From the NCBI GenBank assembly GCA_015060225.1, contig SUYX01000017.1:1-44988 (forward strand): a stretch of 44,988 nt of DNA. Direction: 5' to 3'. Under the pieces are notes generated by a model, which did not search any database, was not told the origin of the DNA, and saw nothing but the letters and a program-made list of their open reading frames with translations. The DNA is from Bacteroidales bacterium (GTDB lineage: Bacteria; Bacteroidota; Bacteroidia; Bacteroidales; UBA932). Of this stretch, positions 3,445 through 12,304 are shown piece after piece; within the stretch, counting starts at the first letter, position 1; every line of letters starts with the position of its first letter. Made by a program: the position numbers and the translations under genes.

Positions 3445-3476
3445 AAAATGGGCCACACTACTGTGCAGCCCATTTT
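3445..3476 (-). terminator. Terminator whose loop contains the upstream gene's stop codon
   Basis: A 9-bp perfect stem (3445-3453 with 3468-3476) is followed on the minus strand by TTTTTGC. The stop codon TAG (3458-3460) of the HU-CCDC81 gene lies in the loop, so the last codons form one arm of the terminator. Confidence 0.8.
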
Positions 3477-4156
3477 CTCATTATCTCAAGTTCCTCTTCG
3501 GTATAAAGAATCCGTTTGAGCAACTCCATAAAATCCTCCTTGAACAGAACCACAAAAAGTACCAATATCAGAAGGAGAATGACAATGACGGCGCTCCACA
3601 CCACCCATTTCTGCACTTTTCTCTTCTGTTCCATAGTATGAGGTATCTTTTTCTCTTTTTCAATTGCAGGGGCAAGTTTCTCCTCAGGGACCCGCGGAGT
3701 CTGCGACACCTTCGGTTCCTGCTCCACCTTAAGCTCTTCAATCACCACTCCCTCTACAACATCCTGCACTTGATTAACCGTTTCATTTTCCTCCAAAGAA
3801 ATTGCCTCCAAGGAGAAACTGTCGGGAGCAAAATCAAAATCAGGGTCAACCGAGAATGAAATTACCCCTTCCCCCTCATCCTTGAATATACCCAACCCGG
3901 GCACCTGTGAAATGCCTTCTGCCTGCAGTTCCTCCCTTATTCTTCCCGACAACTCCACCTGCCACTGCTCAAATTCACCCTCTGCCTCACCTTGTCTGAA
4001 AAGCAATTTCTTGCCTGGAGGCAAAATTGTCTTGCCATCCTCCAAAAAAGATGCTGGCGTTGTCTCCACCACCAGCTCACCGGTCTGCGGAAGCACAACC
4101 CTCTCATTTCTAATCAGTAACTCTTGAATTTGGGAACAAATAAGGTTAAAATCCAT
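3458..4156 (-). CDS. Membrane-anchored HU-CCDC81-type protein without SPOR domain
   Basis: The 232-residue N-terminal part matches the bacterial CCDC81-type HU modules: an opening like that of HU (ICSQIQELLIRNERVVLPQTGELVV) and a second module near residues 60-130 with PGLGIF and FDFAPDSFSL. A charged Glu/Lys/Pro linker follows, then one transmembrane segment (about 183-205) and a short tail of about 27 residues. In Bacteroidota such proteins usually end in a SPOR domain that binds denuded peptidoglycan; here the C-terminus stops shortly after the membrane. The predicted topology is a cytoplasmic HU-like part tethered to the inner membrane. A -7 box TATCTTTG is at 4182-4189. A role linking DNA or filaments to the envelope is inference. 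Confidence 0.72.
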   Translation of the reverse strand: MDFNLICSQIQELLIRNERVVLPQTGELVVETTPASFLEDGKTILPPGKKLLFRQGEAEGEFEQWQVELSGRIREELQAEGISQVPGLGIFKDEGEGVISFSVDPDFDFAPDSFSLEAISLEENETVNQVQDVVEGVVIEELKVEQEPKVSQTPRVPEEKLAPAIEKEKKIPHTMEQKRKVQKWVVWSAVIVILLLILVLFVVLFKEDFMELLKRILYTEEELEIMRKWAAQ

Positions 4157-4181
4157 AACTGTCGAAATTTCTTAAGTATTA

Positions 4182-4189
4182 CAAAGATA
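4182..4189 (-). promoter_or_regulatory. -7 box of the HU-CCDC81 gene
   Basis: TATCTTTG on the minus strand lies about 25 nt upstream of the ATG at 4156. No clear -33 TTTG is present. Confidence 0.5.
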
Positions 4190-4218
4190 AAATTTTTAAC
4201 ATTTTTTTGCTAAAAAAA

Positions 4219-4250
4219 TTTGGAGCATAAAGAAAAATGTCCTACTTTTG
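4219..4250 (+). promoter_or_regulatory. Promoter of tRNA-Asn
   Basis: TTTG (4219-4222), 20 nt, TACTTTTG (4243-4250): a complete Bacteroidota -33/-7 pair, 38 nt before the mature tRNA 5' end. Confidence 0.7.
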
Positions 4251-4287
4251 TACCCGCTAAGCAAAACAACTGCTGGCAAACATAAAT

Positions 4288-4361
4288 TCCTGAATAGCTC
4301 AGTTGGTTAGAGCATCTGACTGTTAATCAGAGGGTCCCAGGTTCAAGTCCTGGTTCAGGAG
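4288..4361 (+). tRNA. tRNA-Asn (anticodon GTT)
   Basis: This is a 74-nt cloverleaf. The acceptor stem is TCCTGAA (4288-4294) with TTCAGGA (4354-4360) and discriminator G. The D arm carries AGCTCAGTTGGTTAGAGC, the anticodon stem-loop CTGACTGTTAATCAG has anticodon GTT, and the T arm is CCAGGTTCAAGTCCTGG. CCA is not encoded. A hairpin terminator follows. The 3' part from 4314 is repeated exactly downstream at 5170-5219, which marks this tRNA as the integration site of the toxin-antitoxin module. Confidence 0.97.
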
Positions 4362-4363
4362 CA
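4314..4363 (+). repeat. Left copy of 50-bp tRNA 3'-end repeat (att-like)
   Basis: Positions 4314-4363, covering the anticodon arm to the 3' end of tRNA-Asn, are identical base for base to 5170-5219. Such direct repeats of a tRNA 3' end are produced when an integrative element recombines into a tRNA gene. This copy completes the working tRNA. Confidence 0.85.
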
Positions 4364-4364
4364 G

Positions 4365-4393
4365 AAAAGCACTCAAAATTTGAGTGCTTTTTT
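4365..4393 (+). terminator. Terminator of tRNA-Asn
   Basis: An 11-bp stem (4365-4375 with 4381-4391) with a 5-nt loop runs into a T stretch. A diverged version of the same hairpin follows the second att copy at 5221-5250. Confidence 0.85.
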
Positions 4394-4423
4394 TGTTTTA
4401 TTTGCTTGTGAAAAAGAAATAAT

Positions 4424-4454
4424 TTTGATAAAAGAAACTAATTAGTTACTTTTG
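4424..4454 (+). promoter_or_regulatory. Promoter of the toxin-antitoxin operon
   Basis: TTTG (4424-4427), 19 nt, TACTTTTG (4447-4454) is a full Bacteroidota promoter. The toxin ATG is 20 nt after the -7 box. The island therefore carries its own promoter, separated from the tRNA by a terminator. Confidence 0.7.
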
Positions 4455-4474
4455 CGTTGTAATAGTAGCGAAAG

Positions 4475-4807
4475 ATGAAAAGGGAACTGATTTACTCACA
4501 AGAATACTTGGAGTTTGTGCAAAGCACCTCAAAAAGGGCACAAGAGAAATTGCTGTATGCAACATCCATTTTGGAAAGTGTAACGCCAGTTCCTATAAAA
4601 TTTGTAAAGAAGCTTACAAATACAGATTTTTATGAGTTGCGCATTTCTGTAGACAACGAAGTTCGTGTCATATTGTTTGCAGTGGACAATGACAATATTA
4701 ATCTTGCCACAAGTATCATTTTCCTTAACGGTTTCATAAAGAAAAGCACTAAGGACTATGAAAAGGAGATAATAAAGGCTATTAACATTTTAAGAGATGT
4801 GTTATGA
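4475..4807 (+). CDS. RelE/ParE-superfamily toxin (HigB/Gp49-like)
   Basis: The 110-residue protein has the compact alpha-beta fold pattern of RelE-type mRNA interferases: an N-terminal helical part, then the strands FYELRISVDNEVRVILFAVDND and INLATSIIFLNGFIKKSTKDYEKEIIKA. The motif with NGFIKK and a nearby helix is characteristic of the phage-derived Gp49/HigB group, which cleaves translated mRNA on the ribosome. Its stop overlaps the antitoxin start by 4 nt (ATGA at 4804-4807), so the order is toxin first, as in higBA. Flanking tRNA repeats show it came with an inserted unit. The family call is good; the exact activity (ribosome-dependent cleavage) is inferred. Confidence 0.85.
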   Translation: MKRELIYSQEYLEFVQSTSKRAQEKLLYATSILESVTPVPIKFVKKLTNTDFYELRISVDNEVRVILFAVDNDNINLATSIIFLNGFIKKSTKDYEKEIIKAINILRDVL

Positions 4808-5166
4808 ATACAACAAACACCAGATTAACAGCAGAAGAATTGCAGAAGTTGCGCAAGACGGACTTCAGTAAGAAGAAAGGTTTTGTTAAGGCATCTGAGG
4901 TGTTGGCAAAGGCGGTTGGCGAAACAGGTACTCCAGAGCGGGAAGAATTTGATGCCAAGGCAAGAGCCTGGTACTATGGGGAAGTTTTGCGTGAGCGCAG
5001 AAAAGAACTTGGCATGACCCAAAAAGAATTGGCTGAGAAAGTAGGCAGAGAAAGGACATATATCAATAGAATTGAACAGGGAGAGACAGATTTGCAACTC
5101 TCATCATTCATCAGAATTGCAGATGCTCTAGGTATATCATTACGGCTAGATGTAAATATTGCATAA
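4804..5166 (+). CDS. XRE-family antitoxin (HigA-like)
   Basis: The 120-residue protein has a C-terminal Cro/cI helix-turn-helix (residues 61-113: LRERRKELGMTQKELAEKVG, then RTYINRIEQGE). The N-terminal part (about 1-55) is charged and probably wraps the toxin. It starts at the ATG that overlaps the toxin stop, which implies translational coupling. By family it neutralises the toxin and represses the shared promoter at 4424-4454. The gene ends three bases before the right att repeat, so the pair fills the island completely. Confidence 0.87.
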   Translation: MNTTNTRLTAEELQKLRKTDFSKKKGFVKASEVLAKAVGETGTPEREEFDAKARAWYYGEVLRERRKELGMTQKELAEKVGRERTYINRIEQGETDLQLSSFIRIADALGISLRLDVNIA

Positions 5167-5169
5167 CAA

Positions 5170-5219
5170 ATCTGACTGTTAATCAGAGGGTCCCAGGTTC
5201 AAGTCCTGGTTCAGGAGCA
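5170..5219 (+). repeat. Right copy of the 50-bp tRNA 3'-end repeat (att-like)
   Basis: Exact copy of 4314-4363. It contains the anticodon arm, variable region, T arm and acceptor 3' strand but no tRNA 5' half, so it is not a working tRNA. It is followed by a diverged copy of the tRNA terminator, so the total repeat is about 85 bp with changes only in the terminator loop region. Confidence 0.85.
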
Positions 5220-5220
5220 A

Positions 5221-5252
5221 AAAAGCACGCAAGAAATTGAGTGCTTTTTTTT
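5221..5252 (+). terminator. Second, diverged copy of the tRNA terminator
   Basis: AAAAGCAC pairs with GTGCTTTT, with one mismatch and a CAA/TTG extension, followed by a long T run. It terminates transcription leaving the toxin-antitoxin genes. Confidence 0.75.
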
Positions 5253-5413
5253 ATGGTAGTGAGGCCCCTCCCGGAACACTCCCCAGAAGCACCCTTCCGG
5301 AGCACCCTCCGAAACACCGGCCATCCACGCCAGGCACCCTCAGCGTGGATAAAACACCCATCAAAACACCTTCCGTCCACAAAATACCACCCGCCTGTGG
5401 ACAAATCTACCAT
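5253..5413. repeat. C-rich, hairpin-dense element of unknown nature
   Basis: This 161-bp stretch is unlike its AT-rich surroundings. Its ends pair (ATGGTAG 5253-5259 with CTACCAT 5407-5413). Inside are three perfect inverted repeats: 5271-5276 with 5295-5300, 5323-5330 with 5343-5350 (8 bp) and 5375-5381 with 5396-5402 (7 bp). On the minus strand small hairpins with GGTG-type tetraloops follow each other (GGAG-GGTG-CTCC, GAAG-GGTG-CTTC, GGGG-AGTG-TTCC). The motif CACCC recurs at short intervals as a degenerate 12-15 bp unit. Short reading frames through it show no recognisable protein. It could be a structured RNA, a REP-like repeat or part of the neighbouring integration site. Confidence 0.5.
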
Positions 5414-5441
5414 CGGAAGAACATAACATGTAAATAAAAAA

Positions 5442-5478
5442 CAAACCCCACAACCTCATCCTTTGGCTGCAGGGTTTG
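5442..5478 (-). terminator. Terminator of the HU-family gene
   Basis: A 14-bp stem including G-U pairs (5442-5455 with 5465-5478) encloses a 9-nt loop and is followed on the minus strand by TTTTTTATTT. The 80 bp between it and the HU stop show no other feature. Confidence 0.8.
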
Positions 5479-5558
5479 CCCGACTTAACCTAACTTAAAA
5501 AACTATTTCATTTAAATAACATCTGTCAATTGAAAATGTTCATAAAATCATGATTATT

Positions 5559-10627: not shown

Positions 10628-12304
10628 TTATTCCATAAGTTTCTTGTACTTGAACTTCTTAGGTTCAACATTACCAAGACGCATCTTCTTATTCTCCTCG
10701 TACTCAGAATAGGTTCCTTCATAGAAGTAAACCTTTGAATCACCCTCAAATGCAAGGATATGGGTACATATACGGTCCAGGAACCAACGGTCATGGGAGA
10801 TGATTACAGCACAACCTGCAAAGTTCTCCAAACCCTCCTCCAATGCACGGATTGTATTTACATCCACATCATTGGTAGGCTCATCCAACAGAAGCACATT
10901 GGCCCCCTCTTTAAGGGTTAGGGCAAGATGGAGACGGTTTCTCTCACCACCGCTCAATACACCGCATTTCTTCTCCTGGTCTGCTCCGCTGAAGTTGAAG
11001 CGTGAAACATATGCCCTGGCATTAACCTCCTTGTTCCCAAGTTTTACAAATTCAGAATTCTCTGCAATTGTCTCATAAACTGTCTTCTCAGGATCTATGC
11101 TCTTGTGCTGCTGGTCCACATATGCAACTTTCACTGTCTCACCAACCTTGAACTCACCTTTATTTGGTGTATCATATCCCATAATAAGACGGAACAGGGT
11201 AGTTTTACCGGCTCCGTTAGGACCAATCACACCAACAATGCCGGCAGGTGGCAACTTGAAGTTCAACCCCTCATAAAGCACCTTGTCTCCAAATGCCTTG
11301 GTAACATCAATTGCCTCAATTACATTGGTTCCCAAACGGGGTCCGTTAGGGATGAAAATCTCAAGTTTCTCCTCCTTCTGTTTGCCGTCTTCATTGAGCA
11401 TCTTCTCATATGCTCCCAAACGGGCCTTAGATTTTGCATGACGTGCTTTAGGGGCCATTCTAACCCACTCAAGCTCCCTCTCAAGAGTCTTGCGGCGTTT
11501 GCTTTCCTGTTTCTCCTCCATCTTCAGTCTGTTTGACTTCTGGTCCAGCCAAGAAGAATAGTTTCCTTTCCAAGGGATACCCTCACCTCTATCAAGTTCA
11601 AGGATCCATCCTGCAACATTATCAAGGAAGTAACGGTCATGGGTAACAGCAATCACAGTACCCTTATACTGCTGCAGATGCGCCTCAAGCCACTGGATAC
11701 TCTCTGTATCAAGGTGGTTGGTAGGCTCATCCAACAAAAGGACATCCGGCTCCTGCAACAGAAGGCGGCAAAGGGCAACCCTTCTCCTCTCTCCTCCCGA
11801 CAAATTCTTCACAAGGGCATCAGGTTCCGGGCACATAAGTGCATCCATCGCCCTCTCCAGTTTGGAGTCAAGCTCCCATCCCCCTACCTGCTCTATCTTC
11901 TCTGTAAGTTCACCCTGCCTCTCTATAAGTTTGGCCATCTGGTCGTCATCCATAGGCTCCATAAACTTCATGTTTATCTCTTCATACTCCTTAAGTACAT
12001 CCACAACCTCCTGTACACCCTCTTCTACAATCTCCCTTACAGTCTTGTTGTCATCAAGCTGCGGTTCCTGCTCCAAATAACCTACAGAGTAACCGGGAGC
12101 CCAGACAACCTCACCTTTGTAAGATTTCTCAATACCGGCAATAATCTTCATAAGGGTTGATTTACCGGAACCGTTCAAACCTATGATACCAATCTTTGCA
12201 CCATAGAAGAATGAAAGATAAATGTCCTTAAGGATAGTCTTGTTGTTGGCAGGCAACACCTTGCCCACACCATTCATGGAAAAAATAATTTTCTCGTCTG
12301 CCAT
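10628..12304 (-). CDS. ettA: Energy-dependent translational throttle ABC-F protein EttA
   Basis: This is a 558-residue soluble ABC-F ATPase starting at ATG 12304 (MADEKIIFSM), the usual start and length for EttA. The first cassette has Walker A GLNGSGKST (42-50), LSGGE and LLLDEPTNHLD. The interdomain linker is rich in Arg/Lys (the P-site tRNA interaction region), and the second cassette has GPNGAGKTT, LSGGERNRLH and LLLDEPTNDVD. EttA binds the ribosomal E site and gates the first peptide bond according to ATP/ADP level. Its own -7 box (TATCTTTG, 12324-12331) lies immediately upstream. The reading frame is open upstream into an AraC-type HTH frame with no stop between. Confidence 0.95.
   Translation of the reverse strand: MADEKIIFSMNGVGKVLPANNKTILKDIYLSFFYGAKIGIIGLNGSGKSTLMKIIAGIEKSYKGEVVWAPGYSVGYLEQEPQLDDNKTVREIVEEGVQEVVDVLKEYEEINMKFMEPMDDDQMAKLIERQGELTEKIEQVGGWELDSKLERAMDALMCPEPDALVKNLSGGERRRVALCRLLLQEPDVLLLDEPTNHLDTESIQWLEAHLQQYKGTVIAVTHDRYFLDNVAGWILELDRGEGIPWKGNYSSWLDQKSNRLKMEEKQESKRRKTLERELEWVRMAPKARHAKSKARLGAYEKMLNEDGKQKEEKLEIFIPNGPRLGTNVIEAIDVTKAFGDKVLYEGLNFKLPPAGIVGVIGPNGAGKTTLFRLIMGYDTPNKGEFKVGETVKVAYVDQQHKSIDPEKTVYETIAENSEFVKLGNKEVNARAYVSRFNFSGADQEKKCGVLSGGERNRLHLALTLKEGANVLLLDEPTNDVDVNTIRALEEGLENFAGCAVIISHDRWFLDRICTHILAFEGDSKVYFYEGTYSEYEENKKMRLGNVEPKKFKYKKLME

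Follow-up and report, generated by a model that had tools for sequence, protein, structure and literature searches.

How does a toxin-antitoxin pair come to stand alone between two copies of the end of a tRNA gene? The question is raised by a 44,988-nucleotide stretch of DNA, hereafter the window, from a gut bacterium of the Bacteroidales (GenBank assembly GCA_015060225.1, contig SUYX01000017.1). An initial annotation had recognised in it an exact 50-bp repeat of the tRNA-Asn 3' end, a diverged repeat of the tRNA terminator and, between the repeats, only a toxin gene with its HTH antitoxin and no integrase; examination of the locus bore out each of these points. The 3' 49 nt of the tRNA gene and one further nucleotide make up a direct repeat that is identical at 50/50 bp with a spacing of 856 (Table 1), and the match extends to a 63-nt block of 97% identity and to a gapped 82-bp block of 95% identity that includes the terminator. 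The toxin and antitoxin genes are the only ones between the two copies, and a search for tyrosine recombinases (PF00589, E 1e-10) gave no match on the contig of the window. The tRNA-Asn (GTT) is the only tRNA called by ARAGORN in the window, and its 49-nt tail, with up to 3 mismatches allowed, occurs twice in the own genome (a MAG, 86% complete, with 2.15 Mb on 64 contigs), both times at this locus. Scored with the RF00005 covariance model, the intact gene reached 73.2 bits and the distal remnant 35.3 bits, so that the distal copy (35 vs 73 bits) is no working tRNA.

Table 1. Features of the tRNA-Asn locus and the basis of each assignment.
Feature	Position	Strand	Basis
tRNA-Asn (GTT), complete, 3' part brought by the insert	4288..4362	+	ARAGORN; 73.2 bits with RF00005
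Proximal repeat copy, imported, now completing the tRNA	4314..4363	+	polarity from the empty site
Proximal terminator, imported, unlike the host type	4369..4394	+	sequence; alignment with relatives
Putative promoter/operator of the pair	4430..4460	+	similar stretch precedes the homologues in G009 and G020
Palindrome ACTAATTAGT in the putative promoter/operator	4437-4446	+	
TACTTTTG in the putative promoter/operator	4447-4454	+	
Toxin, 110 aa, PF05973 (Gp49)	4475..4807	+	Pfam E 7e-9
Antitoxin, 120 aa, HTH_3	4804..5166	+	Pfam E 7e-15
Distal repeat copy, the displaced original 3' end of the host tRNA-Asn	5170..5219	+	3 bp past the antitoxin stop
Original terminator of the host tRNA-Asn, now behind the operon	5225..5253	+	matches the empty site of G007 and the DNA downstream
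Entire insert in register, 856 bp	4314..5169	+	repeat spacing and empty site

The two genes overlap by 4 bp and form one short operon of a toxin-family protein and an HTH antitoxin, the arrangement of a type II toxin-antitoxin system, both with Pfam matches above cut-off. Proteins of the Gp49 family are presumably RelE/HigB-like, and the second motif of the operator region, TACTTTTG, is one that we take to resemble the Bacteroidota -7 element. The antitoxin scored below the cut-off of the HigA model TIGR02607 (21.3 vs 47.7 bits), so that NCBIfam does not warrant the name HigBA; the toxin had no NCBIfam match and no match in the PDB at E 0.01, and the PADLOC matches were weak and generic. Compared with the homologous pair of the relative G009, the toxin gave dN 0.027 and dS 0.66 and the antitoxin dN 0.029 and dS 0.65. 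Both genes are thus under strong purifying selection (dN/dS about 0.04), which suggests that the pair is probably active and makes its retention by addiction plausible. A dispersed 88-bp element, whose core CCCGACTTAACCTAACTTAAAAAACTATTT has 5 exact copies in the own genome, lies at positions 5434-5521 of the window and also adjoins the pair in G009 and G020.

Retrieval of the tRNA-Asn regions of relatives provided the empty site with one repeat that the initial annotation had proposed to look for. In G007, the gene order is that of the window (metG, HU-CCDC81-like, tRNA-Asn, DNA-binding HU-like, mechanosensitive channel gene, cutC), the tRNA-Asn is single and the pair is absent from the site; blastn of the window against G007 gives two blocks flanking the position of the insert, and no toxin match was found in that genome at E 1e-6. 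Had the 3' end of the tRNA simply been duplicated in tandem on the spot, without any mobile unit, a direct repeat with an exact core could also have arisen; this reading is refuted by the empty site, and it is opposed by the missing toxin match in G007 and by the terminators, of which the proximal is unlike the host type and the distal matches it; we regard it as having practically no chance of being right. Of the neighbouring genes, the HU-CCDC81-like gene upstream of tRNA-Asn (window 3458-4156) is fast-changing (51% identity to G018, vs 98% for metG), and its position is mostly conserved despite this.

The empty site also gives the repeat a polarity. Since the distal terminator and the DNA beyond it match G007, the distal copy is the old end of the host tRNA, and the proximal end with its terminator arrived with the insert. 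The initial annotation had confined the change between the copies to the terminator loop: the tRNA core indeed shows no change, but the stem of the distal terminator differs by one substitution (CACTC to CACGC) and the two tails diverge beyond the T-run also. Tail against tail, the tRNA part has 0/50 differences and the terminator part about 5/32 (hand count on the alignment; Fisher p 0.007). As drift on a non-working distal copy would strike both parts alike, the tails are best taken as coming from two lineages; conservation of the tRNA part and variability of the terminator between these explain the pattern, and the selection or conversion on the tRNA part that had been suggested is not needed. 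The insertion is recent, because the remnant carries 0/50 changes (95% bound 5.8%) while five host genes have diverged from those of G007 by a dS of 0.30-0.70.

Taken together, this comparison of sequences indicates that a foreign tail came with the pair in a recent event, that the tRNA was kept whole and that the host end was moved behind the pair. The toxin-antitoxin operon would have come from outside and inserted at tRNA-Asn as a unit of 856 bp, equipped with a tRNA 3' end and a terminator of its own; the imported end would keep tRNA-Asn whole, and the old end and terminator of the host, now behind the operon, probably terminate its transcript. As in genomic islands, the tRNA 3' end is repeated at the far boundary, the tRNA is whole and the site is empty in a relative (G007); with two genes only, the element carries no integrase gene inside. 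Like a cis-mobilizable element (CIME), it has att-like ends and neither integrase nor transfer genes. It is also a gene unit flanked by long direct repeats whose sequence occurs once in a relative, such a single-copy relative being shown for the window only.

We searched for further insertions at the same tRNA across the genus. The tRNA-Asn was located in 35/38 relatives, which with the window makes 36 genomes; the relatives have 36 such genes (two in G012), 30 of them followed by at least 2.5 kb of sequence. Each tail was searched for copies of at least 22 nt (E 1e-3) in the sequence retrieved around tRNA-Asn. A copy outside a complete tRNA was found in 3/36 genomes, the cargo being different in each: besides the window, the copy of G017 (50 nt at 98%) lies 2.3 kb downstream, the cargo being a C10 peptidase and a protein of 219 aa, and that of G030 (33 nt) lies 1.7 kb downstream, its cargo being a 270-aa protein. 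Other cargo at this tRNA, for which the initial annotation had proposed to look, is thus present, and no integrase families were found among the cargo proteins of G017 and G030. The distal copy is followed in G030 by the tRNA-Asn neighbour of G029 and in G017 by that of G027.

Several other occurrences of repeated tRNA-Asn sequence were set aside. G088 (L067, 6994-7920) has the look of a twin, with a spacing of 852, but its HSP20 gene is enclosed by two complete tRNA-Asn genes that resemble each other in their upstream DNA, and it was not counted; the two tail matches in each of G099, G166 and G175 lie at contig ends and may be assembly overlap. In a scan of viral sequences, 5 contigs were obtained and all contained a complete tRNA-Asn; four of these look like phage-borne tRNA genes. 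The fifth (L178) carries tRNA-Asn at 10860-10934, flanked 3' by genes of phage tail type and on the opposite side by an M16 peptidase gene; it could represent a prophage at the tRNA-Asn of another bacterium. Rearrangements around the gene were also seen: the two tRNA-Asn genes of G012 (L033, 208-282 and 11233-11307), both complete, stand in inverted order at a distance of 11 kb and have identical terminators, and the HU-channel-cutC block beside tRNA-Asn is reversed in G009 and G012 and differently placed in G018 and G019.

Repeats of a tRNA 3' end with a restored tRNA are what a non-autonomous, CIME-like element would leave, that is, positions 4314-5219 bounded by attL and attR, with a tyrosine recombinase acting in trans and the toxin-antitoxin pair as sole cargo; the crossover would then lie in the tRNA part, in the anticodon stem-loop or T-arm. 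The repeat of the window starts with the 5' strand of the anticodon stem, a start shared with known tRNA attachment cores, which counts against an entry by homology. A search of the 39 genus genomes for PF00589 (E 1e-10, positions compared by eye) gave matches in 39/39, household Xer proteins probably among them. This would supply a recombinase, but no match was found within 12 kb of any located tRNA-Asn in the genus, many contigs being short and the genomes incomplete; the nearest stands about 13 kb away, on the upstream side, in G038.

Other small units between copied gene ends were found in the own genome and its relatives. In a survey of the tails of the 44 tRNAs called on the stretches taken from the own genome (possibly overlapping), the only tail copy outside a tRNA, besides that of the window, was at tRNA-Met (L089, contig C47). 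There, tRNA-Met is followed by genes for a Fib_succ_major protein and an AraC-type regulator, a 28-nt tail copy, a DUF4160/DUF2442 pair and a longer tail copy, whose 5' end is mismatched although ARAGORN calls it a tRNA. The tail copies with their terminators separate two cargo units in tandem, and no integrase was found among the four proteins scanned. Protein-coding genes are used as well. On contig C26 of the own genome (L140), a 120-bp stretch from the 3' third of the GGGtGRT gene (PF14057 in Pfam) has a 97% copy downstream, with small cargo between. In G020 (L141, contig C5) the end of the same gene is repeated, and the first unit begins with a tyrosine recombinase with Arm-DNA-bind, SAM-like and Phage_integrase domains. 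Finally, on contig C50 of the own genome (L098, reverse strand 3648-4739), an ORF of 363 aa with an SH3_3 domain lies between the DUF2461 gene and a copy of 251 bp (89%) of the 5' part of that gene; the copying of a 5' gene end is more easily reconciled with homology than with an integrase acting on 3' ends. Such units are recurrent here, and among those observed one includes an integrase.

The edges of the units can be judged best from the DUF4160/DUF2442 pair, which recurs behind the GGGtGRT gene of G009 (L053, 1590-3655), where small toxin-antitoxin-like units follow one another, the others being a window-type pair and a nucleotidyltransferase gene. The copies of this pair at the tRNA-Met site of the own genome and at the GGGtGRT site of G009 share 707 bp at 94.6% identity, starting with an operator-like palindrome and ending in the stop codon (the stops themselves differ, TAA and TGA), and the flanks give chance-level matches only. 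At its dS of 0.22-0.27, shared flanks would remain visible, so that these edges appear to be truly sharp. The window's pair has the same edges as that of G009, but the argument is weak in its case, since at a dS of 0.65 any shared flanks would be unrecognisable. The sharp edges bear on the residue suggested in the initial annotation, a larger tRNA-Asn island from which other cargo and the integrase were deleted and the pair kept because its loss harms the cell. Deletion down to an addictive core would give tight edges on both sides, and the purifying selection on both genes, pointing to an active pair, agrees with it. We nevertheless consider this reading improbable: a recent insertion has hardly had time for numerous deletions, the right edge is tight at unrelated sites as well, and the DUF4160/DUF2442 pair is sharp-edged at a divergence where lost flanks should still show.

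Homologues of the toxin (E 1e-6) are present in 15/39 genus genomes. Those of at least 68% identity are patchy (3/38 other genomes: G009, G020 and G011) and all lie at other places, at odds with the course that the initial annotation held against insertion, namely the pair at this site in all relatives with clock-like divergence. A scan of the contig database gave 24 toxin loci, that of G009 included, and an order-wide search at E 1e-25 gave matches in 5/393 genomes, the own included, with 4 further loci; the records include Candidatus Cryptobacteroides and other Bacteroidales MAGs. For each pair, the 700 bp on one side were compared with the 700 bp on the other, and direct repeats from 20 bp upwards (E <1e-3) were scored. 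After merging identical pairs, dropping L133 (no toxin match) and later adding L181-L184, 45 loci were available, all gathered by homology to the window's toxin and so not independent by descent. A repeat brackets 13/45 of them (10/42 in the first count, before L181-L184) and is absent from 32/45. In a tight class of 6/45, the distal copy begins at most 15 bp past the antitoxin stop: window 3 bp, L164 1 bp, L171 5 bp, L125 and L126 7 bp each, and L137 13 bp.

The controls, mostly from the genus and its family, were bracketed less often. Single ORFs gave 6/420 bracketed and 1/420 tight, the one tight match (L098) looking like another insertion; gene pairs gave 8/78 and 3/78, or 6/76 and 1/76 without the toxin loci L164 and L171 among them; random stretches gave 17/400 bracketed, tightness being uncounted. 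For the tight class, the Fisher p is 4e-6 against single ORFs (3e-5 without the window) and 0.01 against gene pairs; for any bracket it is 2e-10 and 0.004, respectively. The contrast with gene pairs is thus weaker than that with single ORFs.

Seven of the 13 brackets (window, L137, L164, L170, L171, L182 and L183) can be read as ends of genes or as terminators. In L164 the last codons of proS and its terminator are copied 1 bp past the antitoxin stop, in L171 the end of a Peptidase_S24 gene (gap 5 bp), and in L137 that of a thioredoxin-like gene (gap 13 bp), which is opposite in orientation and faces the pair. A short gap between the antitoxin stop and a facing gene is in itself nothing special, as 36% of 124 control convergent pairs are at most 15 bp apart. 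L183 has a copied terminator (gap 19 bp), L170 a terminator-like stretch behind tRNA-Met, and L182, a locus from another family, a copied GGGtGRT gene end 514 bp past the stop. L163 has the order proS, terminator, pair of L164 and is 80% identical to it throughout, without the distal copy; it may represent a donor-like state, or one from which the copy has since been lost. The initial annotation had spoken of a tRNA-targeted island: insertion at tRNA-Asn stands, but the phenomenon goes beyond tRNA islands, with ends of protein-coding genes copied too. Of the remaining brackets, those of L125, L126 and L139 are read as a dispersed motif and those of L153 and L158 are unclassified; L184 was rejected as a footprint, its repeats being WD-type protein repeats. 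A motif like GGGCGGACANAGTCAATTTTACCG brackets the related toxin-antitoxin pairs of L125, L126 and L139 in part of the genus.

The varied copied ends, the foreign and host origins of the two copies and a tight right edge without room for arm sites favour entry of the operon by homology at a conserved gene end. We prefer this explanation for tRNA-Asn, while giving it slightly less than an even chance. Its weak points include the 32/45 toxin loci without a bracketing repeat, the lesser contrast with gene pairs and the recurrence of tRNA-Asn, tRNA-Met and the GGGtGRT gene as sites. At tRNA-Asn, three cargos unrelated to each other, and at the tRNA-Met of the own genome, a tandem array of two units, are classical for tRNA-specific integrases. 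The GGGtGRT end, which serves the recombinase unit of G020 and smaller units, also brackets the toxin pair of L182, which favours a preferred site and hence an integrase. A CIME-like element moved in trans is accordingly a serious contender, tentatively held and clearly short of an even chance: the distal copy follows the antitoxin stop after 3 bp, which leaves no room there for arm sites, and the bracketing of one toxin family by several unrelated gene ends would call for several integrases. Entry by homology may be generalised to small toxin-antitoxin operons as moving units, naked cassettes from operator to stop that enter the corresponding gene of another genome without integrase, with the end of a neighbouring gene as passport and any conserved gene end as attachment site; this wider proposal we hold to be unlikely, if conceivable.

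Among known systems, the locus seems to resemble most closely an insertion with long target duplication, reportedly first described for restriction-modification genes of Helicobacter pylori by Nobusato et al. in 2000, the work of Furuta et al. in 2010 also being said to treat such insertion of restriction-modification units. In the locus as in this kind of insertion, a unit without mobility gene and with selfish, addictive cargo lies between direct repeats, long and variable, of which a relative has one copy. The cargo of the window is, in contrast, a type II toxin-antitoxin pair (PF05973 and HTH_3) and not a restriction-modification system, the copies of the repeat differ in origin, one being foreign and one native to the host, and the targets include a tRNA. 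The literature describes restriction-modification units inserted with long, variable target duplications (PMC3874152, PMC3031569), of the order of 100 bp (PMC3874152), and the Helicobacter case (PMC1643837, PMC4978471). Tandem ssrA islands, some possibly cis-mobilizable and 16 of them carrying an integration module (PMC3146451), likewise hold cargo between repeats of an RNA-gene 3' end, partly in tandem and partly without integrase; the window's insert differs in having 856 bp and two genes, and the PF00589 search found no autonomous partner at the site. Chromosomal type II toxin-antitoxin loci are also small pairs between conserved genes and patchy across strains, according to a review (PMC7167474), and sporadic loci are described in pseudomonads in another paper (PMC7280312); in the window, unlike these, a copied gene end is a visible footprint. 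In the titles and abstract openings among the matches listed, in which subscription journals are thinly covered, no toxin-antitoxin pair standing by itself between one foreign and one host gene end was seen to be reported.

Chromosomal toxin-antitoxin pairs are very common, and how they move between hosts and integrate is called unelucidated in the review cited above (PMC7167474). A copied foreign gene end is a footprint that can be searched for in any genome, and it may show how pairs that bring no mobility gene with them are able to move. It also makes the question testable, through the foreign end, the age of the insert and the need for recA or an integrase in its removal.
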